64,000 nt of DNA from an uncultured Chlorobiaceae bacterium (GTDB lineage: Bacteria; Bacteroidota; Chlorobiia; Chlorobiales; Chlorobiaceae), in the NCBI GenBank assembly GCA_903882665.1, contig CAIRXW010000043.1:1-64000 (forward strand). Reading direction: 5' to 3'. The notes under the pieces are model-generated. The model saw only the letters and a program-made list of their open reading frames with translations, did no database searches and had not been told where the DNA came from. Of the stretch, positions 18,324-31,713 are shown piece by piece. The position numbers were made by a program, and so were the translations under genes. The first letter of the stretch is position 1; every line of letters begins with the position of its first letter.

Positions 18324-18668
18324 TTATAATAAATCACCCAAAGGACCGAGATTAAGGTTAAGGTCTTTATCCGTGAGATTAAATATTTTTTTCAACTCAT
18401 CCATCTTGTTTTCAAGTTTCATGAGAGTTTCTCCAAGATTTTCGATTTGATCTTCTGTCAATGAATCACCTTCAATTCTGCGCATTGCCTGTTTTTCCAT
18501 CAACTTCCGAATCAGTTCAACGAGTGTCAGAACAAGTTTAGCAAGACCGGATTCAACATTTTCAGGGGTTGCATTTATTCGCCCTTGAATGCCGGAATTC
18601 ATTTTTTCAAGTTCTTCTATGATCTCATTTGAAGAACCTGCATAAAACAATACCTTATCATTTTCCAT
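18324..18668 (-). CDS. gvpK: Gas vesicle protein GvpK
   Basis: A 114-residue small accessory protein. The core INATPENVESGLAKLVLTLVELIRKLMEKQAMRRIEGDSLT followed by IENLGETLMKLENKMDELK is typical of GvpK. It is the last gene of the gvp cluster, 2 bp after the upstream GvpF/L gene. GvpK is required for gas vesicle formation in several organisms, but its biochemical role is not established. No terminator is obvious in the 43 bp to the convergent regulator. Confidence 0.93.
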   Translation of the reverse strand: MENDKVLFYAGSSNEIIEELEKMNSGIQGRINATPENVESGLAKLVLTLVELIRKLMEKQAMRRIEGDSLTEDQIENLGETLMKLENKMDELKKIFNLTDKDLNLNLGPLGDLL

Positions 18669-18670
18669 CT

Positions 18671-19417
18671 CTATTCAAGCTTTATTTGAGCAAAATTATA
18701 TGGCGGCCATGGGCCTGTCAAAATCACATTGTATTGGGGATAGATGGATTGGATATGAGCGACCAAAGAAAGAAGTTCGCCTTTTGCTGACCGCTCAATC
18801 AAAAGCACAGCATCGACAATTAACGCAGGTGATAATCTTTTGTTAAAATCGACAAATTCAGTTATCTTTTTAAGATCTTGTGCAACAAAGGAGTGTATTT
18901 TTTCGATGTATTGAAGACGCTTTTCTTCGGCTCTATGCTTTTGGTATTTTTTCAGCAAATAGTTTTTTGTTTCGCTGTCTCCCTGCAGTATACCAGTGAG
19001 CGACTGCGGAACATCACCGCACTCTTCGTTAAAGATAGCAGAGTGATGTTCATGCGAAAACAGGATACGTAATGAATATTCTTCTTTATTCATTATTTTA
19101 TTCAACCCATTACGAATCGACTCGGAATTTTTTTCCAATAAAACAATTACATCAGCAGAGGATGCGACAACTGAGCCATACCTCATGGGAAGAATTGAAT
19201 ATTGAGTCGATATTTTATCAACAATACCAGCATAAGCCAAAACCTCATGCTGATAATCAGCAGGTTTATTTGCAGTTTGCACCGAAACTATAGCCGTTAA
19301 CTCATTGGCAGAAATATATTCAATTTGTACACTTGAGCCTGATGGAAGAACATAAATAGACGACAAGGCATCATTGATTTGTCTTGAATCAAAAACAGCA
19401 TAAACAATTACAGGCAT
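18671..19417 (-). CDS. Gas vesicle protein, GvpF/GvpL family (copy 5)
   Basis: A 248-residue GvpF/L protein. Hallmarks are the N-terminal VIVYAVFDS strand, the SILPMRYGSVVASSADV block and the C-terminal LTGPWPPYNFAQI. GvpF/L proteins bind GvpA monomers and are thought to prevent aggregation and nucleate the wall. It is the most divergent copy in the set and sits between a GvpA/J-type gene and gvpK. Confidence 0.9.
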   Translation of the reverse strand: MPVIVYAVFDSRQINDALSSIYVLPSGSSVQIEYISANELTAIVSVQTANKPADYQHEVLAYAGIVDKISTQYSILPMRYGSVVASSADVIVLLEKNSESIRNGLNKIMNKEEYSLRILFSHEHHSAIFNEECGDVPQSLTGILQGDSETKNYLLKKYQKHRAEEKRLQYIEKIHSFVAQDLKKITEFVDFNKRLSPALIVDAVLLIERSAKGELLSLVAHIQSIYPQYNVILTGPWPPYNFAQIKLE

Positions 19418-19448
19418 ACCCGAAAGCGATAATATTATAATGACAATC

Positions 19449-19640
19449 TCACTTGACAGCCTTTCTTTTTTCCATTGTTTCTACCGAACTCAACAACACC
19501 CTCAGGCCGAGATATACAAGATCGATATCGGCTACTGAAATAACTATATCACCTGTAATGACAACCCCTTTTGTTAAAACACGATCAAGAACATCAAGAA
19601 TGGTGATTTCTTTGTTAATGTCATAAAGGTTTTCTTGCAT
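19449..19640 (-). CDS. gvpS: Small GvpA/J/S-family gas vesicle protein
   Basis: A 63-residue protein with the GvpA-like fold: ITILDVLDRVLTKGVVITGDI followed by VADIDLVYLGLRVLLSSVETM. The LDRVLTKGVVI and DIDLVYLGLRVLL parts match the helix-strand-strand core of GvpA and its minor homologues GvpJ, GvpM and GvpS. Its place between two GvpF/L genes is the usual place of gvpS. It ends 1 bp from the upstream GvpF/L gene. The subtype S versus J/M is tentative. Confidence 0.85.
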   Translation of the reverse strand: MQENLYDINKEITILDVLDRVLTKGVVITGDIVISVADIDLVYLGLRVLLSSVETMEKRKAVK

Positions 19641-19641
19641 A

Positions 19642-20439
19642 TTAATTGGATAGATTTATAAATGAGTATGGAGGCCAAGGGCCTGTAATGTCCAGAATCA
19701 ACCCAATATTTTCGTGTTCAATAATCAAATTATCAGCAAGCTTGATAAACTCATCGATGTTGTCATTTTTTATTAAAAAAGTAGCATTGATAATCATATC
19801 ATCGTTTTGCCCTGATAAATCACCAGGAAGAATGGCATGGAAGCGATATTCTTCAGTCAACTCATTAAGGCGAGTAAATACAAGCCTAGATATATCATTG
19901 TATATCGTATTGATTTCTTTTCCAACAAGATCATTTTTTTGCTTTTTCAGTATATAGGCTTTACCAGGGGTGCTCTGCTTGATTTTAAGATCGATGTCAG
20001 CAATATTCCGGCTAAATACGCCTATGTTTTCGACTATTTTATCTTTATTGCAAAAAACCTTGACAGACCACTCTTCCTTGTTTCGAAGATGGAGCAGTAC
20101 CTCCACAAAATCAGCGCTATAGGAACGGACGAAATCCCTTAAACTCTCTTCCGATTTATAGAGAGTCCCAAAATTGAACGGAATAACCGTATGCATCTGC
20201 ATGATGTCTCCAATCACCTGGAGGTGCTTTCTGACATTTCTATCAAGCCAAGCCTCGTTTGAGAGATTTTTTTTAATATTTATTTCAGAATAATCGCTTT
20301 CTGAAACATATTTCATGGTCACATACAACGTATCAACTTCAAAAGAAAATATACCTTCTTTATGCCATAAGCTTGTGATTAATGGCTTTTCGCTGGTAAT
20401 ACAATAAATATATATGAGTCCATTCTTATCATTACCCAT
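19642..20439 (-). CDS. Gas vesicle protein, GvpF/GvpL family (copy 4)
   Basis: A 265-residue protein with GLIYIYCITS at the N-terminus, HTVIPFNFGTLYKSEESL in the middle and ILDITGPWPPYSFINLSN at the C-terminus, all GvpF/L hallmarks. The central region has an insert rich in Lys and Ile (about residues 140 to 190). It lies 19 bp after gvpO. Codon use is strongly AT-biased. Confidence 0.9.
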   Translation of the reverse strand: MGNDKNGLIYIYCITSEKPLITSLWHKEGIFSFEVDTLYVTMKYVSESDYSEINIKKNLSNEAWLDRNVRKHLQVIGDIMQMHTVIPFNFGTLYKSEESLRDFVRSYSADFVEVLLHLRNKEEWSVKVFCNKDKIVENIGVFSRNIADIDLKIKQSTPGKAYILKKQKNDLVGKEINTIYNDISRLVFTRLNELTEEYRFHAILPGDLSGQNDDMIINATFLIKNDNIDEFIKLADNLIIEHENIGLILDITGPWPPYSFINLSN

Positions 20440-20458
20440 TGGAACATTATTAAATCAA

Positions 20459-20731
20459 TCAATTATTTTCCTGTTCGGATTCATCGTATGTCGAGAGCCT
20501 TGTGAATGACAACACCTCCAATTCAGAATCAATAACGACGGCATAAAACAATCGTATTTTTTTAGGAGGGAGGTTCATGGATTTCAAAAAAGAATCATCT
20601 TCATATACCTCTGCAACAGTTTTCCATGTATCTCCGGATTTTTCTATACGAATGACGGTCACTTCTGTCGTCTTGATATTTTCTTTAAGAAATTTAATTA
20701 CAGCATTTCTTACAGTAATTATTTTACTCAT
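20459..20731 (-). CDS. gvpO: Gas vesicle protein GvpO
   Basis: A 90-residue soluble protein with VTVIRIEKSGDTWKTVAEVYED and LPPKKIRLFYAVVIDSELEVLSFTRLSTY. This matches the GvpO pattern of a short helix followed by a curved beta-sheet (W-x-x-x-VEV-E). GvpO is essential in haloarchaea and may affect gas vesicle expression. About 75 bp of AT-rich sequence separates it from gvpG, the largest gap among the accessory genes. Confidence 0.88.
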   Translation of the reverse strand: MSKIITVRNAVIKFLKENIKTTEVTVIRIEKSGDTWKTVAEVYEDDSFLKSMNLPPKKIRLFYAVVIDSELEVLSFTRLSTYDESEQENN

Positions 20732-20806
20732 AATACGCTCCGGCAGTTAATTTTACAAAAAAGAGACTGATTTATGATATATTTATTAAAATACAATCAA
20801 GCTATT

Positions 20807-21079
20807 TCATTGATTTTGCTTCTCCAATCTTATTCTTTCAAGTTTTTTCAACAGCTCATCCTCTTGCTTGTCATATTCTTCCTCATCAATTTCATCCAGC
20901 TCAAACCTGAGCTGAAGTGCCATAAGTCGTTCTTTAACAGTACCTTCATCTGATGTCTCTTTCTCTACAACATCATTGATTTTTTCAGCAATAAATATAA
21001 GACCGTTTAATGGCGCAAATAATATGTCATCGATTATAAAAATATCAGCCTCCTTTGGTATTAATCGAAAGATTGACAA
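20807..21079 (-). CDS. gvpG: Gas vesicle protein GvpG
   Basis: A 90-residue protein. The N-terminus IIDDILFAPLNGLIFIAEKIND is the GvpG signature, followed by an acidic, coiled-coil C-terminal half (LRFELDEIDEEEYDKQEDELL). About 15 extra residues precede the conserved start. The reading frame overlaps the 3' end of the upstream GvpF/L gene by 35 bp, which suggests translational coupling. GvpG usually works with GvpF and GvpL in early assembly. Confidence 0.92.
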   Translation of the reverse strand: MSIFRLIPKEADIFIIDDILFAPLNGLIFIAEKINDVVEKETSDEGTVKERLMALQLRFELDEIDEEEYDKQEDELLKKLERIRLEKQNQ

Positions 21080-21836
21080 AGTTATATGGCGGGAGCGTGC
21101 CTACATATTTGAACGTCATAATATCTCCGTATTTTTTGTCAAGCTCATTAACAGCCTCATCAAATTGTGGTTCTTTAACCTCCTTGATAAGAAAAGCTGC
21201 ATTTAAAATCATAAGATTACCATAATTATCAGTGATCTTGACATCATCAGCAATCGGGTTCAATAGATCAAGAATCTGTTTTTTATGGTTATCAATTTCT
21301 GTCTTCAAAGCATCCTCAACCATTTCACCTATCTTTACTCGTTGATAGTGAATTTTATCAGGTGGCTGGTTCAACAGCTTCTCTCTAAGCATTCTTATAC
21401 TATCATATTTCTGTATAATATTTTCATATATTTTCGATTCATCAGCAACAACTTTAAGCCCAAGTTCCTTTTTCCCCTTCATTTTATCAAGCAAATCATC
21501 TAGTCTGCGATAATCCTCAGTAAGGATACGAATTATTGCATCATCATCATCATGAGGTGAAATCGTAGAAAATCTTACCGGAAGAACATTAAACCGCGTC
21601 ATTACCTCTTCAAGCACTTTTTGATGGGCAATCATATTGGCCCGTCTTGCCTGATATTGAATATCCGGCGATGAGCTTACAATGGCACAAATATCTTTAT
21701 AAGTAACTCCGTACACATGATCATTCCTGCTGCCAATTCCAATAGGGCCAAAATCAATTTTTTCGGAATTTCTTATTATTCCGTATATATATCTGCCTTC
21801 TTTTGCATTATCACTATCCATGTCGTTAAGTATCAT
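21045..21836 (-). CDS. Gas vesicle protein, GvpF/GvpL family (copy 3)
   Basis: A 263-residue protein with GRYIYGIIRNSEKIDFGPIGIG, AHQKVLEEVMTRFNVLPVRFSTIS, NAAFLIKEV and YVGTLPPYNFVNLSI. It follows the common GvpF/L layout and is close to copy 2 in the N-terminal FGPIGIGSR pattern, so these two probably arose by duplication. It lies 9 bp after copy 2 and overlaps gvpG. Confidence 0.92.
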   Translation of the reverse strand: MILNDMDSDNAKEGRYIYGIIRNSEKIDFGPIGIGSRNDHVYGVTYKDICAIVSSSPDIQYQARRANMIAHQKVLEEVMTRFNVLPVRFSTISPHDDDDAIIRILTEDYRRLDDLLDKMKGKKELGLKVVADESKIYENIIQKYDSIRMLREKLLNQPPDKIHYQRVKIGEMVEDALKTEIDNHKKQILDLLNPIADDVKITDNYGNLMILNAAFLIKEVKEPQFDEAVNELDKKYGDIMTFKYVGTLPPYNFVNLSINTKGG

Positions 21837-21845
21837 TTTTTGATT

Positions 21846-22619
21846 TTAGAGTTCCCATTTTTCAGGGAGAATTCGCAAGTCTATAAAGTTAAAGATTGGC
21901 AGCGGACCCGTATAATAAAAGTCACTTCTCTCCTTAAATCTTTCTCCAAGATCAGTCATAACATTATCAAATTCAACTTCGCGACCTTTGTTGAGCAAAA
22001 AAGCGGTATTCATAAACAGAGCCTCCCCTGTTGTTTTGTTATGCTTATACGCGACAACTGTCTTGCGAAAAGTTGTTACAACTTCTTCAGCCTCAACTTC
22101 TTTCTTTTTTTGCAACGCCTCTTCTATTATATGGCCAGCCTCAACAATGAATGTTTTTCTATTTTCTTCATCAATTGATTTTTCTATTTTACTTCTAAGT
22201 TTTTTCAGGCCCGAATTTTCTTTATCAATCTCTTTATAAATATCAGCCATATTTCTCCAGGAGGCTTTAAGATTATATTCAACCTTGTTTTCAAAGCGCT
22301 CAAGCAGTTCGGATAATTCGCTGTATCGCCTGTCAAGGAGATTCCTGATCTCATCAGGTGTTGCCGCAACAGTACCAAACCTGACCGGAATGACACTGTT
22401 GAATTGAGTCATCACCACCTCAATTACTTTTTGATGAGCAAGAATATTTTCAGGATTTAATACAAAGTGATCCAGAGGGTGATCACTCACCACCATGCTT
22501 AATCCCTGAAATCCAATGGTACTTACCAAATCACCTCTTCCACCGATTCCAACAGGTCCAAAATTGCACTCATAACTTGTTGCAATTATACAATAGACAT
22601 ATTTACCATCTTTTTGCAT
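21846..22619 (-). CDS. gvpF: Gas vesicle protein, GvpF/GvpL family (copy 2)
   Basis: A 257-residue protein with GKYVYCIIATSYECNFGPVGIG, AHQKVIEVVMTQFNSVIPVRFGTVA, NTAFLLNKG and YYTGPLPIFNFIDL. Of the five copies this one has the most standard GvpF features. Gas vesicle GvpF binds GvpA and is found on the gas-facing side in cyanobacteria. It begins 1 bp after the stop of the J-domain fusion gene. Confidence 0.92.
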   Translation of the reverse strand: MQKDGKYVYCIIATSYECNFGPVGIGGRGDLVSTIGFQGLSMVVSDHPLDHFVLNPENILAHQKVIEVVMTQFNSVIPVRFGTVAATPDEIRNLLDRRYSELSELLERFENKVEYNLKASWRNMADIYKEIDKENSGLKKLRSKIEKSIDEENRKTFIVEAGHIIEEALQKKKEVEAEEVVTTFRKTVVAYKHNKTTGEALFMNTAFLLNKGREVEFDNVMTDLGERFKERSDFYYTGPLPIFNFIDLRILPEKWEL

Positions 22620-22620
22620 A

Positions 22621-23640
22621 TTATTTCTTTATTTTGACCAGGTATAAAGGTTCAACCATTACCGTATCAGGCGACTGTTTAATGGCATGTAAATACTCAA
22701 GCAATATTTTGTATGCATGGTTAATTTTTATAAATCCGTCAGTACTATCTTGTGGACTTTCGCTGTTTTTGTCAGGGTGCGTTAATCCTGCATTCATGCG
22801 ATACGCTCTCTTAAGACTACCCTCTGTCAGAGCAACGTCAATCCCAAGCACTTCTTTGGCTTTTTCTATATCATCCTTATCAAGTACTTTACATTCAATA
22901 GTATAAAAACTATAGCATGGCAATGGCCCAACTATCTTAAAGTTCAACTGATCAGCATATTTTATGTCAAGCTGATCAATCGAATCCATATAACGTTCTT
23001 TATTTTCTTTTTTTACAAGAAAAGCGCAATTTACAGGCATCTCATCATTCATCGTCTCATGCTTTTTAGCAGCAAAGCAATAAGGCATCAATGAATTAAT
23101 CACATCACTATTGACTTTATTGTTTTTTTCATCAATCTTTTTCTTGATCAATTTCCCTATATTGATGCTATCGGCCTGTTCATACGTATTTTTTTTTGCT
23201 ATCTCTTCCTTCATAAGTCTGATTGCTGACGTATCAGATATGCGTCTGATAAAATCGGGAAAATCATTCCAGACAGCCACTACATCAAATTCCTCAACCT
23301 TAGCGATAACGTTAAAAACATCATTGATAACAGCAAATCCATGTTTCAATATCTTAATGACATCATTTCCTGAACTCACTATGGTGCCGAGTTGAACCGG
23401 AATAACTTCCGAGCATCCACTGCTCATCATCTTTTCAAGTTTTCTTTGATGATCAACAAGAAGATATGCAAGAGCCTCCCTGTCAAGATATTCAAGTTTT
23501 TCATCCCTTGTATCTGACACGACTGCAGAAATACCTTTATATTCTATCGAGTAGATTCCGGATTCAAGCATAAGATCCCTCACAGCATCAAAACAATGAG
23601 TGGGAACAAATCCGTATAAATAAATACCCTGCTTATTCAT
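22621..23640 (-). CDS. GvpF/GvpL protein fused to a C-terminal DnaJ J-domain
   Basis: A 339-residue fusion. Residues 1 to about 250 are GvpF/L: GIYLYGFVPTHCFDAVRD, SEVIPVQLGTIVSSGNDVI, NCAFLVKKEN and VGPLPCYSFYTIE. Residues about 255 to 325 form a J-domain. A helix II-like GSLKRAYRMNAGLT leads into the invariant HPD (residues 288-290), and helix III follows (GFIKINHAYKILLEYL). J-domains stimulate Hsp70 ATPase through HPD, so this protein could recruit DnaK to GvpA-bound GvpF/L. The frame is continuous and no sign of frameshift exists. It sits between the Cdc48-type gene and GvpF/L copy 2, 6 bp and 1 bp away. Confidence 0.88.
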   Translation of the reverse strand: MNKQGIYLYGFVPTHCFDAVRDLMLESGIYSIEYKGISAVVSDTRDEKLEYLDREALAYLLVDHQRKLEKMMSSGCSEVIPVQLGTIVSSGNDVIKILKHGFAVINDVFNVIAKVEEFDVVAVWNDFPDFIRRISDTSAIRLMKEEIAKKNTYEQADSINIGKLIKKKIDEKNNKVNSDVINSLMPYCFAAKKHETMNDEMPVNCAFLVKKENKERYMDSIDQLDIKYADQLNFKIVGPLPCYSFYTIECKVLDKDDIEKAKEVLGIDVALTEGSLKRAYRMNAGLTHPDKNSESPQDSTDGFIKINHAYKILLEYLHAIKQSPDTVMVEPLYLVKIKK

Positions 23641-23646
23641 TAACTG

Positions 23647-25794
23647 CTAATTTATTATATTTTCATTTTGATGGATGACGACTTCTATTGCCTCTTCAAA
23701 ATGTTTTTCCGTAACAAGAATTTCCGCCGTATCGGAAGCCTCTTTATTATCAATTATTTCGCGAATAGCGCACATTTTTGCCTTTTGACAAATAAACTGT
23801 ATGTCTGCCCCTGTCATACGTTCTGTTTTTCCGGCTAAAAGAGTCAAGCTCACACCACTTTCCAGAGGCATATTTTTTGTATGGATTTTAAATATTTTCT
23901 CTCTGGTACTTAACTCAGGTAATGGAACTTCAAACATAAGATCAAATCTTCCTGAACGTAATAATGCAGGATCAATGATATCGATCCGATTTGTTGCAGC
24001 TAGCACCGTGACACCTTTCAACTCTTCAATACCATCCATTTCAGTAAGAAATTGACTGATCACTCGTTCAATTACCCCGGATTCTGTACCATCATTTCTT
24101 CTGCGTGGTGTAAGACTGTCTATTTCATCAAGGAAAAGAATTGTCGGCGCTGATTGTTTGGCAAGTCTGAAAAGTTCCCGTACCCCTTTTTCAGATTCGC
24201 CAATAAAACGGCTAAGTAGTTGCGGCCCCTTGACTGAAATAAAATTCACACCACTCTCACTGGCAAGTGCTTTTGCAAGGTATGTCTTGCCTGTTCCTGG
24301 CTTTCCATACAATATTATCCCTTTAGGTGGTTTGGTATCTGTTTTTTTAAAGAGTTCTGCATACTTGACAGGCCACTCGACACTCTCTTTTAATGCCTGC
24401 TTGATCTCTTCAAGCCCTCCGACATCTTCCCACTTGACATCAGGGACCTCTACAAATACTTCACGGATGGCAGAGGGCTCAACCTCTTTCATTGCGTCAA
24501 GAAAATTATCCATCGTGACTTCCAATTGCATCAAAAGCTCGTAAGGAATCTCCGATAATTCAAAATTAATCTGCGGAAGAATTTTTCTTAACGCCGTCAT
24601 GGCCGCCTCCCGTGCAAGGGCTTCAAGATCAGCCCCGACAAAGCCATGAGTAATATCGGCAATTTTAGTCATATCCACATCTTCTGACAGAGGAATCCCC
24701 CTTGTATGGATATGAAGAATTTCAAGGCGTCCTTTCTTGTCAGGAATTGAAATCGATAGTTCACGATCAAAACGGCCTGGTCTTCTCAGGGCAGGATCAA
24801 TAGAATTAGGTATATTTGTTGCCCCAATGACAATCACCTTGCCTCTTGACTCCAATCCATCCATCAACGATAAAAGCTGTGCAACAACCCTCTTCTCCAC
24901 CTGTTTTTCGCCGCCCATATCCTCCCGTTTGGGAGCGATTGCATCTATTTCATCAATAAAAATAATTGATGGCGCATGCGACTGGGCTTCAGCAAATATA
25001 TTGCGCACCCTTGCTTCACTTTCACCATAATACTTGCCCATAATTTCAGGGCCTGATATATTTATAAAATATGCATCCGTCTCCTGAGCCACCGCTCTTA
25101 CAATAAGTGTTTTACCAGTACCCGGAGGGCCATAGAGAAAAACACCTTTTGGAGGTTCAACTCCCAGTCTTTCAAATATTTCAGGGTATTTAAGGGGCAG
25201 TTCAATCATTTCTCGTATTCGTTGAACCTGATTACCAAGTCCCCCTATATCTTCATACGTGACCTTATTTGATTTTACTTCATTTTGTTTGGTCAACTCA
25301 ACCTGAATAGAAGTATCCGGATGGATAAGAACCACTCCATCAGGAGTCGTCGAAGTTATGGTGTAGTATATTGAGCCGGACCCGAAAAGAGTCGCCTTGA
25401 TTTTATCACCCTTGGTAACAGGCAAGCCATTGATAAGCGAACCTATATATTTGGCATCATCAGCTTTTATCAGTGAACTTGACTTTGTTACCGGTTTAAG
25501 CTTGATTTTTGTGGCTTGACGGAAGGTAACTTTATTGATCAATACTTTTTCATCGATACCAACTCCAGCATTCTCCCTGGTAATACCGTCAATCTGTATG
25601 ATCCCCTTATCTCTGTCATCCGGATAGGAAGGAAGTATTTTGACCGGAGTAGAGCGCTTACCCCCGATCATGACAATGTCACCAGAATCCAACCCAGTGC
25701 GAGCCATATCATGAGGATCAATCCTTGCAATTGCTCGTCCTACATCCTTGACAATAGCTTCTTTTACCTTGAGTACCAACTCATCATTACTCAT
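23647..25794 (-). CDS. Cdc48/VAT-type AAA+ ATPase in gas vesicle cluster
   Basis: A 715-residue protein with the full architecture of archaeal VAT / eukaryotic Cdc48 (p97). An N-domain of about 170 residues has ARIDPHDMARTGLDSGDIV, like the double-psi barrel. D1 has GPPGTGKTLIVRAVA, IIFIDEIDAIAPKRE and ALRRPGRFDRELSI. D2 has GKPGTGKTYLAKALA, ILFLDEIDSLTPRRR and LLRSGRFDLMFEVPLP. Both Walker A and B sets and both Arg-finger regions are intact; the D2 P-loop has Lys for the usual first Pro. The C-terminus (NENIIN) lacks an HbYX proteasome motif. Such proteins unfold or extract client proteins. It overlaps the ArsA-like gene by 4 bp, so it belongs to the gvp transcript. The family is uncommon in Bacteria. 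Confidence 0.93.
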   Translation of the reverse strand: MSNDELVLKVKEAIVKDVGRAIARIDPHDMARTGLDSGDIVMIGGKRSTPVKILPSYPDDRDKGIIQIDGITRENAGVGIDEKVLINKVTFRQATKIKLKPVTKSSSLIKADDAKYIGSLINGLPVTKGDKIKATLFGSGSIYYTITSTTPDGVVLIHPDTSIQVELTKQNEVKSNKVTYEDIGGLGNQVQRIREMIELPLKYPEIFERLGVEPPKGVFLYGPPGTGKTLIVRAVAQETDAYFINISGPEIMGKYYGESEARVRNIFAEAQSHAPSIIFIDEIDAIAPKREDMGGEKQVEKRVVAQLLSLMDGLESRGKVIVIGATNIPNSIDPALRRPGRFDRELSISIPDKKGRLEILHIHTRGIPLSEDVDMTKIADITHGFVGADLEALAREAAMTALRKILPQINFELSEIPYELLMQLEVTMDNFLDAMKEVEPSAIREVFVEVPDVKWEDVGGLEEIKQALKESVEWPVKYAELFKKTDTKPPKGIILYGKPGTGKTYLAKALASESGVNFISVKGPQLLSRFIGESEKGVRELFRLAKQSAPTILFLDEIDSLTPRRRNDGTESGVIERVISQFLTEMDGIEELKGVTVLAATNRIDIIDPALLRSGRFDLMFEVPLPELSTREKIFKIHTKNMPLESGVSLTLLAGKTERMTGADIQFICQKAKMCAIREIIDNKEASDTAEILVTEKHFEEAIEVVIHQNENIIN

Positions 25795-26756
25795 TTTACC
25801 TCTCTGTTTAGCTCTTTATGTTCATCAAAGAGCACCTGCATTAATGTCTTCAAAGCCGTCACCCCTTTGATTTCATCAGGAAAAAGAGGGACAATTACTA
25901 CCTGTAATTCGTTAAACAGCTCATGAACCTTATCAATATACTTACGTTGGGCGGCCTTTCTTTGTCGGCAAAACCCGGATTCGTCTGACTCCATGACATT
26001 ATTGAGAATCAATTGGTGTGATGAAATCCTGAAGTTCCTGAGTTCTTTTAAAAGCCTCTGCGTTTCCATAATAGCCATGTCCTCAGGAATACAGACCGGA
26101 ATAAATTCGCATTTCTCACTATTACCCAAGAGAACTGCTATACGTTTGACGGTCTTTTTCAGATTAAGCAACATAACATCTGCTTCATCATCCTTGTATT
26201 CACCAGAAAAAGACTCAATCATATAACGATACTTCCACCTCATTTTTGCAGCCATCTTGATCCACTCATCCAAAAGTACCGGAGAGGACAAAAGACGCAA
26301 TGCATGTCCGGTTGGTGCCGTATCTACCACATATTTTTCGTAATTATTCTCTTCAATCAGGTCGATAATGGTTTTGAAGCTCATAACCTCATCAATACCG
26401 GGTATTGAGAGACTCATCATTTGCTGAATATCTTCGTCATCAAAATTTGTGGATGTATCAAAGAGTTTAATGAGTTCAGCTTCATGCTCTTTTTTAAAAT
26501 CCTGAAATGCTTTATCTGCAGAAATCTCTATAGCGGTGAGGTTGGCAACGTTTCGAACAGGTTGAAGTCTGAACCCAATCTCTTGCTCGAGACTGTCAGA
26601 AATTGAGTGCGCCGGGTCTGTTGAAATTACCAGTGTCTTGAATTTTCGGGCCAACCCTATAGCGCAAGCCACAGCACAACTGGTCTTGCCAACTCCACCC
26701 TTACCGCCAAATATAACCATCTTAAGGTCTTTGCACTCCAAACCTGTCAGCGGCAT
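25791..26756 (-). CDS. ArsA/Get3-like ATPase in gas vesicle cluster
   Basis: A 321-residue single-domain P-loop ATPase. FGGKGGVGKTSCAVACAIGLA (about residues 16-36) is the deviant Walker A with the intersubunit Lys. STDPAHSISDSL is switch I, and DTAPTGHALRLL is switch II. The late motif SGFCRQRKAAQRKYI corresponds to the Get3/ArsA CxxC region, but the first Cys is replaced by Ser, so the zinc-bridged dimer of Get3 is unlikely. Get3 shields hydrophobic tail-anchored proteins and ArsA drives arsenite export. No arsenic genes are nearby, so a role in handling hydrophobic Gvp proteins is inferred. It overlaps the Cdc48-type gene by 4 bp and follows gvpH by 4 bp. Confidence 0.88.
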   Translation of the reverse strand: MPLTGLECKDLKMVIFGGKGGVGKTSCAVACAIGLARKFKTLVISTDPAHSISDSLEQEIGFRLQPVRNVANLTAIEISADKAFQDFKKEHEAELIKLFDTSTNFDDEDIQQMMSLSIPGIDEVMSFKTIIDLIEENNYEKYVVDTAPTGHALRLLSSPVLLDEWIKMAAKMRWKYRYMIESFSGEYKDDEADVMLLNLKKTVKRIAVLLGNSEKCEFIPVCIPEDMAIMETQRLLKELRNFRISSHQLILNNVMESDESGFCRQRKAAQRKYIDKVHELFNELQVVIVPLFPDEIKGVTALKTLMQVLFDEHKELNREVK

Positions 26757-26760
26757 TGTA

Positions 26761-27285
26761 TCATTTTTTAATTCTTATTTCAAGGATACCGTTTATGTAT
26801 TTTTGTTGAATCGAACTCGTATCAGATTTAATCGGCAATAACAATTCCTTGCGGTAACTCTTTTTCATACTTTTCGTCGATATCTCAAGAATGTCATCTT
26901 TAAGATCAATAATAATATCCGACTCTTCAATGCCAGGCATTTCTGCAATTATGACAACTTCATCATCCTCATCAAACACATCAGTTATAGGTTCACGTTC
27001 CTCGTTGACCATGGGGCCTTTAGCTGTTTTAACTATGTTTCCGAAAGTCTCAACCTTTGGAGAACCTCCGACTGCTGATTTAATGGTAAATCCATAAACG
27101 CCTTTCATTCCTTTTTTCAACTGATCAAAATTGAGCTCTCCTTCGCGACTTACCGCTCCAGCCTGCTCAAGCTTACCTGCTAAATCGACCAATTTTTCAA
27201 TTCCCTTAAAAAGACCTCCCAAGCCAAGAAAATCGAACTCAGATTCTGATTCCCCTTTTCTGTTACTATCTTTTTCATATTTCAT
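26761..27285 (-). CDS. gvpH: Gas vesicle protein GvpH (Hsp20-like)
   Basis: A 174-residue protein. The N-terminal half is charged and contains FDFLGLGGLFKGIEKLVDLAGKLEQ. The C-terminal half is an alpha-crystallin/Hsp20-like sandwich: DEVVIIAEMPGIEESDIIIDLKDDILEI and LLLPIKSD...NGILEIRIKK. GvpH proteins of this type are small-heat-shock-like; in haloarchaea GvpH has been linked to control of gas vesicle gene expression and binding of Gvp proteins. It sits between gvpJ and the ArsA-like gene. Confidence 0.9.
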   Translation of the reverse strand: MKYEKDSNRKGESESEFDFLGLGGLFKGIEKLVDLAGKLEQAGAVSREGELNFDQLKKGMKGVYGFTIKSAVGGSPKVETFGNIVKTAKGPMVNEEREPITDVFDEDDEVVIIAEMPGIEESDIIIDLKDDILEISTKSMKKSYRKELLLPIKSDTSSIQQKYINGILEIRIKK

Positions 27286-27298
27286 GGTATACCCCCAC

Positions 27299-27598
27299 CT
27301 ATGTTGTTTTTGTCATCGCTTCCAGTTTCTCTACACGCTGCTGTAAATCATCCCGTAAAATCTGCTGTTCTTTGTCTTTGGCTTTCGTAGAAAGATATGG
27401 ATCTTCCTGCCACCAGTTTATACCCATCTCCATGGCCTTGTCAACTGATGCAATCAAAAGCCTTATCTTAATGGTCAACAAGTCTATATCGGCAATCTGT
27501 ATTTTTATATCTCCTGCAATTACAATACCTTTATCAAGAACCCTTTCGAGTATGTCCGCAAGACCAGTCGCATTAACAGCATGTTTTAATTCTGCCAT
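27299..27598 (-). CDS. gvpJ: Gas vesicle protein GvpJ
   Basis: A 99-residue GvpA homologue. GLADILERVLDKGIVIAGDIKIQIADIDLLTIKIRLLIASVDKA is the GvpA/J core, and it is followed by a 45-residue charged C-terminal tail (WWQEDPYLSTKAKDKEQQI), as in GvpJ. GvpJ is a minor wall component believed to form the conical tips. It lies 12 bp after the GvpV-like gene and 13 bp before gvpH. Confidence 0.9.
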   Translation of the reverse strand: MAELKHAVNATGLADILERVLDKGIVIAGDIKIQIADIDLLTIKIRLLIASVDKAMEMGINWWQEDPYLSTKAKDKEQQILRDDLQQRVEKLEAMTKTT

Positions 27599-27610
27599 GG
27601 TACAATAAAT

Positions 27611-27916
27611 TTAGTACTCTATTTGGATAGTTGTAAATCCAGGCTCTGAGTTTACCTCACCGTAATGGCGATTATTCTGATGATGAAGTAAATGAGAACT
27701 ATGCTCATAAATATTCTCGATAATTCTTAACCTGTTCTGGACATAATCAAGCCGGCATAATATTTTCGACTCTTCAGCCATTAACCGCTGTTTCTCCTTT
27801 TCAAGCATATACAACTCAAGAAAATCCGCAGTATCATTTTTCTTAATAGATGCCTTGGTAACGGTATGGAGAGTCTTGATATGACTGACACCCCTTTTAG
27901 GATTCATGATCGGCAT
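27611..27916 (-). CDS. Small basic coiled-coil protein, possibly GvpV-like
   Basis: A 101-residue protein that I do not recognise with certainty. It has an N-terminal basic segment (PKRGVSHIKTLHTVTKASIKK) followed by a helical, charged stretch (FLELYMLEKEKQRLMAEESK and RLDYVQNRLRIIENIYEHS) that should form a coiled coil. The layout recalls cyanobacterial GvpV, which also has an Arg/Ile-rich start and an LE-x-EK-x-R helix; this is an impression, not a demonstrated homology. It is tightly packed between gvpN (29 bp) and gvpJ (12 bp), so a gas vesicle role is likely. Confidence 0.6.
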   Translation of the reverse strand: MPIMNPKRGVSHIKTLHTVTKASIKKNDTADFLELYMLEKEKQRLMAEESKILCRLDYVQNRLRIIENIYEHSSHLLHHQNNRHYGEVNSEPGFTTIQIEY

Positions 27917-27945
27917 AATATCTCATTTGATTGTGGTTTATATAA

Positions 27946-28872
27946 CTATGAGTACAAGTCAATAAGCTCATTTACAATACCACGTACCCTCTCCTGATTT
28001 GTTTTGGATCCAACCCTGCTCGTCTCCGAAGTTAAAATATCCTGACAGACTCTTTTAAACATATCATTTGACTTGTCCGGCCTTGCTCCAAGAACATTCA
28101 ATGTTTTCGCTATCATGATCGAACCCCGGATGGTAGGGTCAAACTCGGTTTTTCCCGATTCACGCAACCCGCGGACAATTTTAACAATTATTTCGGCATC
28201 ATCAAGTGACATTCCTGATTTTGCATGAGTGATCATAAGCTCCGTCTCGTAATCAAAATAATCAAGATCCATGGTAACCATTCTGTCACGCAGTGCATCC
28301 TGGGTTCTGTTTACACCGGCATACTCCTCTGGATTCGAGGTAAATATCGCCCTGAATTCGGGATGAACCTTCATATAGTACTCTTCTTCATTTGATGATG
28401 AGGTGCTCAACATTTTTTCCTGAAGAATAGGAAGAAGGATATTGTTTGCTTCAGGACGCGAACGGGTAAATTCGTCATACACCAGGGTAAACCCTTTCTT
28501 GATTGCAATGGTAAGTCGATTGTTTACCCACTGCTTGGTCATGTCCTCTTCATACTTGTGAACAGAATGAATAAAATTGTCATCAAGCCTTCTGTATTTA
28601 TAACCCTGCTCACTTCCAATAAGATCAGATGTTTTGTATTCTGAATCGCCATGAATAATGACAACCGGTCGACCGATCTGGCTTGCAAGATGCAACGCGA
28701 CCGTCGTTTTCCCGGTGCCGGAGGGGCCCCTGAAATGAACGGGAAAGCCCGCTTTCATGTAGGTCAGACCACGGTTGGTTATATCCCTGATGTAGTCTGT
28801 CTCGACAAAATTTGGCATGGGCTTCGGCTCAAGCACTGTATTCATCTCATTATCATTTCCCTGGCGACGCAT
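27946..28872 (-). CDS. gvpN: Gas vesicle AAA+ ATPase GvpN
   Basis: A protein of about 300-308 residues of the MoxR/NorQ-like AAA+ class. FRGPSGTGKTTVALHLASQIGRP is Walker A, GFTLVYDEFTRSRPEANNILLPILQE is Walker B and sensor region, and FRAIFTSNPEEYAGVN...ALRDRMVTMDLDYFD is the conserved GvpN block. GvpN with GvpC supports growth of gas vesicles to full width. The frame starts at 28872; ATG 28845 (MNTVLEP) is an alternative start preceded by AGGGA. An 18-bp stem-loop lies upstream, between gvpN and the gvpC-like gene. Confidence 0.95.
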   Translation of the reverse strand: MRRQGNDNEMNTVLEPKPMPNFVETDYIRDITNRGLTYMKAGFPVHFRGPSGTGKTTVALHLASQIGRPVVIIHGDSEYKTSDLIGSEQGYKYRRLDDNFIHSVHKYEEDMTKQWVNNRLTIAIKKGFTLVYDEFTRSRPEANNILLPILQEKMLSTSSSNEEEYYMKVHPEFRAIFTSNPEEYAGVNRTQDALRDRMVTMDLDYFDYETELMITHAKSGMSLDDAEIIVKIVRGLRESGKTEFDPTIRGSIMIAKTLNVLGARPDKSNDMFKRVCQDILTSETSRVGSKTNQERVRGIVNELIDLYS

Positions 28873-28935
28873 AGTTACAGGCTATTTGAATTTTTATTGG
28901 ACCAATTCACTTAAAATCAACAGCTCAAAAACACA

Positions 28936-28981
28936 AAAGCAAGATAAGGGTTTTTTTGTCTACAAACCCTTATCTTGCTTT
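28936..28981 (-). terminator. 18-bp stem-loop after the gvpC-like gene
   Basis: AAAGCAAGATAAGGGTTT (28936-28953) and its exact reverse complement (28964-28981) are separated by 10 nt. On the minus strand it starts 11 bp after the gvpC-like stop and is followed by TTGTGTTTTTGAG. It should act as a terminator or leaky attenuator that splits the abundant structural genes from the accessory genes, or as an mRNA 3'-end stabiliser. Confidence 0.8.
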
Positions 28982-28992
28982 AATTTTGTTAT

Positions 28993-30162
28993 TTACTTAA
29001 TATTCTTCTTCGCTGGGTAGTAAAGATTTTCTACTTTTGAAACTTTCCCTGCATCCAGCAGACATTTTGCAGCAAAACCAATCTTCATCCTGGTTTCATG
29101 TAAAGGTTCTTCCATATCAGAAACCTTGACACCTTCATGATGACTATTGATGTACTGGAAAATTTTGTCTTCCAAAGTGATTTCATCGTGTACTGCTGGC
29201 GGCTCAATAGTGACAACCGGTGCCTTTTCCACAAAAACAGGCAACACTTTAATAACAGCAGGAGCTGGTTCAGCTTTTACTTCATGTTTTTCAACCGCTT
29301 TTTCCTCCATTTTTGGAGCGGCAACCTGCTCTCCACTCCTGATCGCCGCGATCTCTTCCTGCATTTTACTCCAATGCTCAGCTCCCTGTGATCTGTCTTT
29401 GGAATAACTGCCAAGCAGGCTCGAAGTGGATTTTCTCAACTCTGCAACTTCACTGCTGATCCGGTCAAACAACGCGTTATACTCCTTCAGCCTGTCTGCC
29501 TCACCATGGTTTAAATCATTTCTCAGCTCACGGGCAGCATTGAGATTTTCGTTACTGATCTCTGCAATTCTTTCCTGAATACTCTTCAGCAATGCATGGG
29601 TATACTCAAATCGTTCATTTCTTGTTTTGCTCAGCTCCGCCCTGAGCTCCTCCGTCATCTCCTTATGTTCACTGCCAAACTTTTCAAGCATTTCGTTTGT
29701 ATAATTGAAAATACTTGATACTTCATCACTTATTTTTCCAATGTACACCTCATACTCCGCCATTCTCGACTGCTCATTCTGTGTGCGTGACTTATTTTCT
29801 TCAGAGAAAAATTTGTCCAAATCACTTGCCAGCACCTTTCTTGCCTTCGAAAACTCTTTGATCAATGCGTTCGTTGACGACTTTGAACCCTTAACTTCCT
29901 TTTCGATGCCTTTGATATCTTTCTGTATGGAGCCAATCAACTGTCCATATTTGCTTATCCGCTCTTTTTCACCCGCAGCAAGATTACTCTTTAATTCAGC
30001 AGCATTCGCATTCAAGGTTGCGGCTGTATTTTCCTGCTCATGACGATACTGTTTCAGTTTGTTCTCAACAGTAGCAACAAGCTCCTGATTATCCCTGACG
30101 CGCCCTTTAAATGAAGAAAGCATCTCTTCACTCAAGCTTTTCATTTCATTAGCCAGTCCCAT
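28993..30162 (-). CDS. gvpC: GvpC-like coiled-coil repeat protein
   Basis: A 389-residue, mostly helical protein. Residues about 45 to 260 contain four degenerate repeats of roughly 40 to 60 residues with the theme A-E-L-x-x-x-L-x-x-G-E-x-x-R-x-x-x-Y (examples GEKERISKYGQLIGSIQKDI and GEADRLKEYNALFDRISSEV). That is the style of GvpC, the protein that wraps and stiffens gas vesicles. A Pro/Ala/Glu/Val-rich linker (about 295-325) follows, and the last 60 residues (ITLEDKIFQYINSHHEG to YYPAKK) look like a winged-helix fold. This C-terminal domain is not part of cyanobacterial GvpC. The gene is upstream of gvpN, the standard gvpC-gvpN order. Subfamily identity is an inference. Confidence 0.72.
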   Translation of the reverse strand: MGLANEMKSLSEEMLSSFKGRVRDNQELVATVENKLKQYRHEQENTAATLNANAAELKSNLAAGEKERISKYGQLIGSIQKDIKGIEKEVKGSKSSTNALIKEFSKARKVLASDLDKFFSEENKSRTQNEQSRMAEYEVYIGKISDEVSSIFNYTNEMLEKFGSEHKEMTEELRAELSKTRNERFEYTHALLKSIQERIAEISNENLNAARELRNDLNHGEADRLKEYNALFDRISSEVAELRKSTSSLLGSYSKDRSQGAEHWSKMQEEIAAIRSGEQVAAPKMEEKAVEKHEVKAEPAPAVIKVLPVFVEKAPVVTIEPPAVHDEITLEDKIFQYINSHHEGVKVSDMEEPLHETRMKIGFAAKCLLDAGKVSKVENLYYPAKKNIK

Positions 30163-30199
30163 CTTGCTCTCCGTTTTTGGTTAAGTATTACGAATAATC

Positions 30200-30802
30200 T
30201 TATTTGCTGATAATATATTTAGCATTTTTGATATCCCTGATACTGATATTATCGCCTTTTTCAAGTAATGATTCAAGATATACCATCACCTCTTTATGCA
30301 TTTCCTGAAAATCTGTCAATATTTTTATAACCGTCTCTTTTCTTTTTTCCTGTATCTCCGCAATTTGAGCCAGTTCTTCTTTCAGCAAGACATTTTTATC
30401 CGGAGAATCCGCTGCACAATAATCAGAAATATTTACTATTATATTTTTTAACGACTGGGTAAACTCCTTCTGGTCTTCTATAAAAGCAATAAAATGGTTT
30501 TTTGCATTGCGCTCTTTTTCATCAAGTAAACTATAGATATCACTCATGATGATATTATAATCTTTTTTTCGCAACGACTCTTTTTTTGCCAGTGCTTCAC
30601 AGAGTTTTGAACTTACATCATTCCGCCTCTCCTTCAGATATTCCAGGGAATGCTCAACACTGTCAACCAAAAAATGACACGACTCTTTAATATTCTCGGA
30701 ACTCTGGAACGCATTCTGAATTTTTTTTATCCTGATATCTTCTGAGTCACCGATATCTTCAGAAACAACCTTTTCCATAACTACCTCTTCTCTGATATCC
30801 AT
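30200..30802 (-). CDS. Gas-vesicle-cluster coiled-coil protein, unknown family
   Basis: A 200-residue acidic, helical protein (for example CHFLVDSVEHSLEYLKERR and LLKEELAQIAEIQEKRKETV). The last 25 residues (GDNISIRDIKNAKYIISK) look like a small beta/helix end. I do not recognise a family. It lies between gvpA and the gvpC-like gene, 37 bp from the latter, with an imperfect hairpin and an AT-rich gap of about 175 bp after gvpA. By position it could be a second GvpC-like shell protein or a regulator of wall strength. The ribosome site before ATG 30802 is weak; other ATGs follow at 30778 (MEKVV). Confidence 0.6.
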   Translation of the reverse strand: MDIREEVVMEKVVSEDIGDSEDIRIKKIQNAFQSSENIKESCHFLVDSVEHSLEYLKERRNDVSSKLCEALAKKESLRKKDYNIIMSDIYSLLDEKERNAKNHFIAFIEDQKEFTQSLKNIIVNISDYCAADSPDKNVLLKEELAQIAEIQEKRKETVIKILTDFQEMHKEVMVYLESLLEKGDNISIRDIKNAKYIISK

Positions 30803-30899
30803 CTCGACCTCATATTATATGCAATTAAACACCATCACTACCAACCGGTCAATATGCACCATCACCCAACTCTTCTCTTCGTTTTAGCGGTATAAATAA

Positions 30900-30956
30900 G
30901 TTCTTGGTAAATCATGCTCACAAGACATTATTGCCGGAGGATGCTTTAGCAAGAAC
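30900..30956 (-). terminator. Imperfect hairpin after gvpA (attenuator candidate)
   Basis: GTTCTTGGTAAATCAT (30900-30915) pairs at 14 of 16 positions with the reverse complement of ATGCTTTAGCAAGAAC (30941-30956). On the minus strand it is followed by TTATTTATA. It could partly stop transcription after gvpA and explain how gvpA outnumbers downstream products. Confidence 0.55.
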
Positions 30957-30978
30957 AATCATTTAACTGCCAGCACCC

Positions 30979-31185
30979 TTATGCTGCCTTTGCAGTCAGG
31001 CCGATTGCTTCAGCATACTTCAGGTAGGTCTCTACAGAGGCAACGACGACCCTTGCTTCGATAGCAAGAAGTTCGATACCGACAAGTGATACCCTTACCC
31101 ATGCATCGACAACGACGCCCTTGTCAAGGATACGATCAATAACCTCTACGAGGCTTGACGAGCCGATTGTTTTCTCTACTGCCAT
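30979..31185 (-). CDS. gvpA: Gas vesicle major structural protein GvpA (copy 2)
   Basis: A 68-residue hydrophobic wall protein, [20 protein letters not shown] at the start, with [20 protein letters not shown] in the centre and an AKAA C-terminus. GvpA forms the ribbed, water-excluding shell. The protein is identical to that of the upstream copy; the nucleotide sequences differ only at a handful of synonymous positions. The ribosome site GGAG (in CCGGAGATTTATC) precedes the ATG in both copies. Confidence 0.97.
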
Positions 31186-31241
31186 GATAAATCTCCGGTT
31201 GTTTGTTTAAAAAAATGACACTTCATTCTGCAAAATCTCGC

Positions 31242-31448
31242 TTACGCTGCCTTTGCAGTCAAACCGATTGCTTCAGCATACTTCAGGTAGGTCTCTACAG
31301 AGGCAACGACGACCCTTGCTTCGATAGCAAGAAGTTCGATACCGACAAGTGATACCCTTACCCATGCGTCTACAACCACACCCTTGTCAAGGATACGGTC
31401 AATAACCTCTACGAGGCTTGACGAGCCGATTGTTTTCTCTACTGCCAT
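31242..31448 (-). CDS. gvpA: Gas vesicle major structural protein GvpA (copy 1)
   Basis: The promoter-proximal of two tandem genes for an identical 68-residue GvpA. The frame is open further upstream to 31541, but ATG 31448 with GGAG eight bases before it matches copy 2 and the family length. It lies 56 bp before copy 2 and about 75 bp after a sigma-54 promoter. Two copies give a high dose of the wall protein. Confidence 0.97.
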
Positions 31449-31524
31449 GATAAATCTCCGGTTGTTGATACTTGATAATACCGTCTTGTAAAGAGAGGGA
31501 CGGCTTGCCTCACCAAAGAAGAGC

Positions 31525-31540
31525 TGCATATAGTGTGCCA
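31525..31540 (-). promoter_or_regulatory. Sigma-54 (-24/-12) promoter of gvpA
   Basis: On the minus strand the sequence TGGCACACTATATGCA matches the consensus TGGCAC-N5-TTGCA, with GG and GC separated by exactly ten bases and one mismatch in the -12 element. Predicted transcription begins near 31514, about 65 nt before the gvpA ATG. It fits with the NtrC-type regulator at the other end of the cluster. Confidence 0.8.
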
Positions 31541-31561
31541 CGGTAATAGAGCGTACTCATC

Positions 31562-31581
31562 AGCCGTCTGCAATAACGGCT
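31562..31581. promoter_or_regulatory. 6-bp inverted repeat upstream of the gvpA promoter
   Basis: AGCCGT and ACGGCT, eight bases apart, centred about 40 bp upstream of the -24 element. It could be a regulator site. It has no T-run in either direction. Confidence 0.3.
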
Positions 31582-31693
31582 AGACCATAGCATTAAAAGA
31601 TGATATCTATTTATTATTTATTTTCTGCCTGACGCTGTGGATCGATATATGCCTCGATAAGCCTGATTTTTTCCGTCAGAGAGCCGCACAGTT

Positions 31694-31713
31694 GTGCGAA
31701 TCGATGTTCGCAC
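31694..31713. promoter_or_regulatory. Candidate enhancer (UAS) palindrome for gvpA
   Basis: GTGCGAA, six bases, then TTCGCAC. It lies about 165 bp upstream of the sigma-54 promoter, the usual distance for an NtrC-type enhancer. An AT-rich tract (about 31600-31626) that could bend lies between the two. It is between the alkD stop and gvpA; without a T-run it is a poor terminator. Confidence 0.45.

Follow-up and report, generated by a model that had tools for sequence, protein, structure and literature searches.

The gas vesicle cluster and its chaperone-like genes

The window, a stretch of 64,000 nucleotides from an uncultured Chlorobiaceae bacterium (contig CAIRXW010000043.1, positions 1 to 64,000), carries a gas vesicle (gvp) gene cluster that encodes four chaperone-like proteins: a CDC48-type double-AAA ATPase, a single-domain Get3/ArsA-type ATPase, a small heat shock protein (GvpH) and a GvpF/L protein with a C-terminal J-domain. 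Positions 18,324-31,448 form a single run of minus-strand genes, in which Gvp proteins and the chaperone-like set are encoded together with intergenic spacings of -35 to +176 bp. As expected of a gas vesicle cluster, gvpA, gvpF/L, gvpG, gvpK and gvpN are all present. An earlier note on this DNA had described one such run with a Cdc48/VAT-type ATPase, an ArsA/Get3-like ATPase, a GvpF/L protein with a J-domain, a small-heat-shock-like GvpH and the ATPase GvpN. All of these genes were recovered with Pfam, and the present gene list adds a second gvpA, a short gvpM-like gene and a sigma-54-type promoter.

In the direction of transcription, the run begins with two nearly identical copies of gvpA, the shell protein gene (31242..31448, Pfam Gas_vesicle, with the ATG start read; and 30979..31185, from the sequence as read and the open reading frame (ORF) call). 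They are followed by orf200 (30200..30802), of no known family, and by the gene of a putative GvpC-like helical protein (28993..30162, with a sub-threshold apolipoprotein match only), both conserved in the clusters of relatives. The product of orf200 is rich in coils, a second such protein beside the GvpC-like one, whose final ~60 residues, by eye, resemble a small separate domain. Next come gvpN (27946..28872; Pfam AAA_5 ATPase), orf101 (27611..27916), again of no known family and conserved in relatives' clusters (an iterated orf101 model was applied to close relatives only, as it also matches opposite-strand ORFs in cyanobacteria), and a minor GvpA-family gene, probably of GvpJ type given its position (27299..27598; Pfam Gas_vesicle). 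Beyond the four chaperone-like genes, the run continues with GvpF/L paralogues 2 (21846..22619) and 3 (21045..21836), both found by Pfam, GvpG (20807..21079; Pfam; its start as listed falls within the end of paralogue 3), a GvpO-like protein (20459..20731; below the Pfam cut-off), GvpF/L paralogue 4 (19642..20439; Pfam), a short GvpM/GvpA-family protein (19449..19640; NCBIfam GvpM E 3e-11, below cut-off), GvpF/L paralogue 5 (18671..19417; Pfam) and GvpK (18324..18668; Pfam).

A sigma-54-type -24/-12 promoter, TGGCACACTATATGCA (31525..31540, minus strand), lies 92 bp upstream of the first gvpA start. Six of the 10 clusters examined (the window and five relatives) share such a site, which stands 89-92 bp ahead of their first gvpA, and it is absent in L035, L049, L061 and L038, although the contig start of L038 may leave the second gvpA copy only. 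As background, random 300-bp stretches give at least 10 matches in 0.5% of cases and at least 9 in 3.2%. On the plus strand, a gene for an NtrC-type sigma-54 response regulator (16844..18280; Pfam) adjoins the run, as it does several relatives' gvp clusters; it is a probable controller of the adjoining operon. Relatives' clusters repeat the same gene order. G+C content is 35-43% over the cluster and 45-53% in the other 2-kb steps, save for 41% over the regulator.

Identity of the chaperone-like proteins

The CDC48-type protein (23647..25794, minus strand) carries CDC48_N, CDC48_2 and two AAA domains (Pfam) and belongs to the CDC48 family by the NCBIfam model TIGR01243, which it matches with 934 bits against a cut-off of 803; its closest solved structure is the 'VCP-like ATPase' 5g4f. 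In the 8 proteins aligned, both AAA domains retain P-loops, DEID boxes and pore-loop aromatics. The protein is a candidate for hexameric ATP-driven unfolding; CDC48-type motors are unfoldases by family. The protein shares its domains with eukaryotic Cdc48-p97 and with archaeal VAT, but it differs from both in that it co-occurs with gas vesicle genes and that its cyanobacterial relatives carry a GvpH-like element where the N-domain would be. In an unrooted tree whose long branches meet, the CDC48 proteins of clusters with a J-domain GvpF (those of class relatives and of L061, L139, L153, L155 and L156) fall into one group with moderate support (81/97), which joins the copies of another family, f4, at 95/98, and the cyanobacterial AAA proteins stand apart on a long branch of their own. 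Plasmid-borne gvp clusters of Methylosinus and Methylocella contain genes that public annotation already labels 'CDC48 family AAA ATPase'.

Directly upstream, and overlapping the CDC48 gene by 4 bp, lies the Get3/ArsA-type gene (25791..26756, minus strand; Pfam ArsA_ATPase E 8e-78). Its product has one domain and 321 amino acids (aa), and in the class relatives all 13 gvp ArsA genes that are near complete span 316-357 aa from stop to stop. It passes the NCBIfam GET3_arsA_TRC40 subfamily model TIGR00345 (250 bits, cut-off 135), and its PDB matches are led by 'ATPase ARSA1' 5zme, then 3ug6 and 3zq6, with bacterial ArsA 1f48 behind, a likeness to the Get3/TRC40 and ArsA1 group. We take 3ug6 and 3zq6 to be archaeal Get3. 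CxxC is the zinc motif of archaeal-type Get3; the window protein, the only one aligned for this purpose, has a single cysteine at the pair of 3ug6. It also differs from Get3/TRC40 in that we know of no tail-anchored client or membrane receptor for it. In a tree that includes 10 chosen cyanobacterial ArsA loci, a gvp-only branch of 16 proteins (SH-aLRT, a Shimodaira-Hasegawa-like approximate likelihood ratio test, 100), which unites the window protein with the gvp-linked ArsA of relatives, stands apart from six own-genome paralogues; a seventh, the two-domain L271, fell outside the tree owing to the length filter. In all, the window's genome (G000) contains eight ORFs that match ArsA over a long stretch, and only one of them sits in the gas vesicle run. 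At L222 (7813-8847; phylum of G102), a J-domain GvpF/L gene next to a 655-aa ArsA lies on the strand opposite the rest of the gvp genes.

The name of the family might suggest that the ArsA-type protein serves arsenic resistance. The depositors of two of its nearest structures, 3ug6 and 3zq6, titled them arsenical pump-driving ATPases, and in an excerpt of PMC3610870 the Nodularia ArsA gene nsp15480, which directly follows the gvp genes, stands in a table under arsenate-related genes, although it is probably the gas vesicle ArsA. However, the window protein reaches only 128 bits against the cut-off of 650 of the arsenical-pump equivalog TIGR04291 while passing the Get3/TRC40 subfamily model, the tree has its gvp-only branch, and neither arsenic pump nor ArsR families occur among the Pfam matches of the run. 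We thus rejected an arsenic role, which is extremely unlikely.

GvpH (26761..27285, minus strand) is a small heat shock protein with an alpha-crystallin domain (Pfam HSP20 E 1e-6, above cut-off; domain modelled at a predicted local distance difference test (pLDDT) of 82-90), although it falls just under the cut-off of the NCBIfam archaeal Hsp20 model. Residues 1-84 of the model have a pLDDT below 50, with a helix drawn at 22-41. Here lies an N-terminal element (27118..27219, minus strand), short and amphipathic, in which residues 23-41 of GvpH read GGLFKGIEKLVDLAGKLEQ. Haloarchaeal GvpH is likewise an Hsp20-type accessory protein; according to excerpts of published work it keeps GvpM from aggregating (PMC6107691) and is non-essential (PMC9501494).

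The J-domain (22702..22854, minus strand; Pfam DnaJ E 3e-10, above the Pfam cut-off) has an intact HPD motif and forms the C-terminus of GvpF/L paralogue 1 (22621..23640, minus strand; Pfam GvpL/F E 3e-43). In the structure model of this protein (mean pLDDT 88), residues 3-249 match GvpF crystal structures with Z 21.3, and residues ~256-325 match J-domains with Z about 8-8.7, which the tool rates as middling but which the Pfam match backs. HPD is kept in 24 of 24 J-domains fused to GvpF/L in the fetched loci and in the J-domain GvpF of a named Octadecabacter plasmid (25/25 in total), these copies having been collected with a J-domain hidden Markov model (HMM) that strongly decayed copies could escape. 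As a J-domain protein, this GvpF/L would be predicted to stimulate DnaK. The window's genome has two further J-domain ORFs, a strong DnaJ-like one and a weak one; the J-domain GvpF has no relative in the viral contigs searched and no match in the phages searched.

Co-occurrence with gas vesicle genes

GvpK was used as the genome-level marker for gas vesicles; the Fisher p values below ignore kinship, and related genomes are not independent. In the class sample of 98 genomes, GvpK is found in 27, CDC48_N in 25 and both in 24, that is, CDC48_N is present in 24/27 gvpK-positive against 1/71 gvpK-negative genomes (p 1.5e-18), the sole CDC48-only genome being G094. In the three gvpK-only genomes (G039, G074 and G088) the gvp cluster ends at a contig edge, which in G074 cuts through the CDC48 gene. 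Within the window's family, CDC48 occurs in 15/17 gvpK-positive and 0/69 gvpK-negative genomes (p 6e-15), and 14 of the 15 carry it inside the fetched cluster; the exception, G029, has it on another contig, and its gvp contig starts within the J-domain GvpF gene.

The cyanobacterial double-AAA proteins follow gvpK as well. An even sample of 292 cyanobacteria, searched with double-AAA profile A2 (E<=1e-120; four first-look candidates scored per genome), contains the protein in 45 genomes, GvpK in 46 and both in 45, which amounts to 45/46 gvpK-positive against 0/246 gvpK-negative genomes (p 2e-52). The score is at least 919 bits in 44 of these genomes, and G744 has a partial match of 482 bits. 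Linkage to gvpK is missing in 16 of these 45 genomes, as judged from the assemblies: the AAA gene lies on the same contig more than 300 kb away in 7 and on another contig in 9, although the latter does not prove distance in a draft assembly. The sole gvpK-positive cyanobacterium sampled with ArsA in its cluster and no double-AAA match (G793, locus L184) could be a natural knock-out. The association extends to the phylum of G099 (Acidobacteriota, locus L062), where AAA is present in 9/18 gvpK-positive and 7/279 gvpK-negative genomes (p 1e-8), with every gvpK-positive match at 1107 bits or more and every gvpK-negative one at 917 bits or less.

Counts were also made for core loci, defined as fetched loci holding gvpA, gvpN and gvpF/L together. 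For these counts, L163 and L149, which duplicate the loci L063 and L062, were excluded, ArsA paralogues near but outside the L052 and L053 clusters were set to zero, and Hsp20 had to exceed 60 bits, so that weak haloarchaeal-type GvpH matches (24-41 bits) were not counted. All four chaperone-like proteins are encoded in 14 of 14 core loci of the class and in two of three from other Bacteroidota, and CDC48 in 7/8 from the phylum of G099. Among 32 cyanobacterial core loci, 29 have AAA and ArsA, one has ArsA only and two have neither; in 22 of the 32, ArsA and AAA come after a GvpF/L-type gene on the same strand. Recurrent gene order and genome-level association together indicate an arrangement beyond chance, and we rejected chance neighbourhood as a full account because of the co-occurrence in the class and in cyanobacteria. 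The archaeal CDC48 neighbours in L224, L226 and L230 were not counted as support, both for their position on the strand opposite gvpK and because CDC48_N is present in all four archaea among 14 control genomes. A GvpN scan of genome contigs yielded at least five loci.

A GvpH-like element on cyanobacterial AAA proteins

Cyanobacterial gvp AAA proteins are mostly about 620 aa long, with two AAA domains, and the three tested lack CDC48_N at E<=1e-6. Their N-termini resemble MSDLFKGFEQLLELAKTLEEK, a likeness to the GvpH element which was spotted by eye first and tested afterwards. An HMM built from 17 distinct GvpH N-terminal elements alone was run on 19,069 six-frame ORFs. At E<=1, its sole matches were 22 GvpH (seeds included) and 26 AAA proteins, the latter all cyanobacterial and out of the 30 cyanobacterial AAA ORFs found with the reverse HMM. 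Among the 26, which include a duplicate locus, 16 have E<=0.1 and 8 have E<=0.01. Thirty column-shuffled versions of the HMM matched no AAA protein, and an HMM from six diverse GvpH still matched 19. The reverse HMM, built from the AAA N-terminus, found 17 GvpH, of which 6 have E<=0.01, together with one GvpC (0.017) and weak matches in two unannotated ORFs, and a local profile-profile alignment of the two elements has a probability of 96.5. The element is shared with other bacterial GvpH, but was not detected in those of Methylocella and Octadecabacter.

Proteins that are fused in one lineage and separate neighbours in another often cooperate. No Hsp20 gene was found at the score used in the 32 core cyanobacterial clusters, and the GvpH-like element on their AAA proteins suggests that GvpH and the AAA motor are linked in the manner of a gene fusion, a link that appears to be new.

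A proposed protein-handling module for gas vesicles

The four genes are present in a tight run of conserved order, CDC48 and the cyanobacterial AAA genes co-occur with gvpK, HPD is conserved, and GvpH and AAA proteins have an element in common. These observations support the assignment of the CDC48-type, ArsA, J-domain and GvpH genes to gas vesicle function, strongly so for the CDC48-type partner, and suggest that gas vesicles have their own protein-handling crew. In the best explanation that we can offer, which we hold to be evenly balanced between right and wrong, the minus-strand run would be a sigma-54-type gas vesicle operon with its own protein-handling module, dedicated to gas vesicles and made up of GvpF/L, the J-domain and through it DnaK, GvpH, the CDC48-type ATPase and the Get3-type ATPase.

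Under this model, the GvpA-family subunits (GvpA, GvpJ and GvpM) would be aggregation-prone and would be bound by GvpF/L proteins; excerpts of two papers give GvpF as a main GvpA binder and suggest a chaperone-like role for it (PMC9501494, PMC11445434). The J-domain of one GvpF/L would recruit the cell's general DnaK to the GvpF/L-client complex, GvpH would hold the same clients or the nascent vesicle via its N-terminal element, a Get3-type dimer would shield hydrophobic segments, and a CDC48-type hexamer would pull apart stalled, misassembled or collapsed GvpA assemblies. In cyanobacteria, with a GvpH-like element fused to the double-AAA motor, the motor would come with its own means of recruitment to the site bound by GvpH, and the unfoldase would be brought to the clients of GvpH. 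We infer the identity of the clients, the oligomeric states, all binding steps and the order of hand-offs, from GvpF to DnaK, to Get3 and to Cdc48.

A more specific version can be put forward with slightly less assurance. Gas vesicles would have a dedicated GvpH-CDC48 disaggregase or remodelling machine, for which the GvpH element is the targeting module, acting in trans where it sits on GvpH, as in green sulfur bacteria, and being part of the motor protein itself in cyanobacteria; the J-domain GvpF would tie clients to DnaK, and the double-AAA protein would be an overlooked, nearly universal gas vesicle protein of cyanobacteria.

Several findings weigh against the module. The A. flos-aquae genes gvpA and gvpNJKFGWV give a gas vesicle signal in HEK293T cells according to excerpts of PMC10344784, so that ArsA and AAA are not needed there. 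Half of the gvpK-positive genomes in the phylum of G099 have no AAA at the cut-off, and 8/17 core archaeal loci have none of the four proteins at the scores used. There are also clusters of haloarchaeal layout that lack CDC48, ArsA and J-domain GvpF. Incomplete sets occur as well, with CDC48 but no ArsA in Methylosinus, ArsA but no AAA in G793, and a J-domain GvpF with neither CDC48 nor ArsA adjoining in Octadecabacter. Conversely, CDC48 is found in 9/9 genomes of family f4, eight with gvpK and one without, and lies there on a different contig from gvpK or 244 kb off (G090), while CDC48-Hsp20 pairs without gvp genes are carried by two haloarchaeal plasmids and lone CDC48 genes by two plasmids of the rhizobial order. 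As for the GvpH element, global profile alignment gives a probability of 78 instead of 96.5, the window element alone as query reaches AAA proteins at E 0.25-8.4 only, and the GvpH-element HMM misses the GvpH of Methylocella and Octadecabacter.

The dedicated pathway proposed in the earlier note finds partial support. Its tie to gas vesicles is strong, whereas a strict pathway is at odds with the incomplete sets, with the clusters of haloarchaeal layout and with vesicles formed without ArsA and AAA. The same note had held that absence of the genes from related gas-vacuolate strains would speak against the pathway; they are not absent within the family, and other groups are mixed. As the heterologous vesicles form without ArsA and AAA, we favour quality control, remodelling or turnover as the probable work of the module, and not obligatory assembly.

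Could the module be a turnover machine that dismantles collapsed or surplus vesicles, lowering buoyancy and recycling shell protein, with little part in building? Vesicle formation in heterologous hosts without the module, the unfoldase nature of the CDC48 family, and the way in which CDC48/AAA follows gvpK in phototroph groups would all fit. However, CDC48 and ArsA are embedded in the biosynthetic run, with gvpH on one side and gvpF/L on the other, where expression during assembly is expected, and no protease gene is found among the Pfam matches of the run; we regard such a machine as unlikely, if a serious contender. Still less probable is that AAA and ArsA, instead of acting in quality control, power a specific step of construction alongside GvpN, for instance nucleation or the setting of shape and size. 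A role for ArsA in energising vesicle biogenesis was proposed by Castillo and Saier (PMC2963123, in excerpt), and co-occurrence is nearly complete in the cyanobacterial sample, but the heterologous signal is obtained without AAA and ArsA, and several gvp lineages lack both.

The plasmid-borne genes bear on a third alternative, in which the module would serve general stress and accompany the gas vesicle genes only as a passenger on mobile DNA. CDC48 beside Hsp20 without gvp genes, the low G+C of the cluster (35-43%) and plasmid-borne gvp clusters with CDC48 are in line with it. Yet the cyanobacterial AAA tracks gvpK even when unlinked (16/45), and the combinations of GvpF/L with the J-domain and of the GvpH element with AAA tie the parts to Gvp proteins, which makes such a passenger very unlikely. 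That the Hsp20 of the non-gvp pairs do not match the GvpH-element HMM also counts against it, but weakly, as the HMM misses the true gvp Hsp20 of Methylocella too. The pairs in question are in L277 (a Natrinema plasmid) and L280 (Halobacterium pNRC200), where Hsp20 directly precedes CDC48, no gvp genes occur in the stretch examined and the HMM gives no match to either Hsp20. We did not adopt the idea of CDC48 as a gas-vesicle-only family, as four of the five plasmid regions examined have CDC48 and no gvp genes (Methylocella has the only gvp cluster among them) and the f4 copies lie away from gvpK.

Relation to published work

The presence of ArsA and Hsp20 genes in gvp clusters was published in 2010: excerpts of Castillo and Saier (PMC2963123) report an ArsA homologue and hsp20 among gvpN/L/F/G/J/K/M, including in Pelodictyon luteolum. 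The gvp-linked ArsA described there has two domains and about 637 aa, as against one domain and 321 aa in the window; the word DnaJ does not appear in the main text, and the excerpts name neither a CDC48-type ATPase nor a GvpH/AAA link. As far as we have seen, the CDC48-type partner has been annotated and not discussed in the literature searched. Among the matches listed in the open-access literature searched, no paper ties gvp clusters to Cdc48, J-domain GvpF or a GvpH-AAA fusion. One gas vesicle paper, in the excerpts at hand, names Cdc48d only as a protein sticking to nickel resin, and the words ArsA and AAA are absent from a 2023 paper on Prosthecochloris gvp clusters (PMC10158934). The excerpted cluster table in PMC9501494 uses gvp letters only, with CDC48 and ArsA unlisted, and neither lies beside the one named Halobacterium gvp cluster that we examined.

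For cyanobacteria, the gene list in print ends at gvpW, both in the A. flos-aquae cluster table of a 2022 review (PMC9501494) and in a 2020 Anabaena paper (PMC7204071), each in excerpt, whereas ArsA and AAA follow the GvpF/L-type gene in the 22 core loci mentioned above. This may matter for gas vesicle engineering. According to excerpts of PMC10344784, a minority of the clusters tested gave detectable vesicles in E. coli, and its authors suggest that one cause may be missing genes that lie outside the operons as annotated. The chaperone-like genes are specific, testable candidates for shell-protein solubility, error correction and the removal of failed vesicles.

Host genome and other observations

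The host genome of the window comprises 2.8 Mb in 57 contigs. The magnesium-chelatase genes bchH, bchD and bchI are located at 6.8-13.9 kb of the window, so that the organism is probably a bacteriochlorophyll-producing green sulfur bacterium. The gvp cluster of L061, from the Bacteroidales metagenome-assembled genome PL25a_bin.72, has the gene order of the window's class relatives, and its GvpN is 77% identical, which suggests gene transfer or a binning error. Finally, an ORF at 45393-46664 of the window shows a strong partial match to the model of the anti-phage ATPase PtuA (319 bits, cut-off 500).

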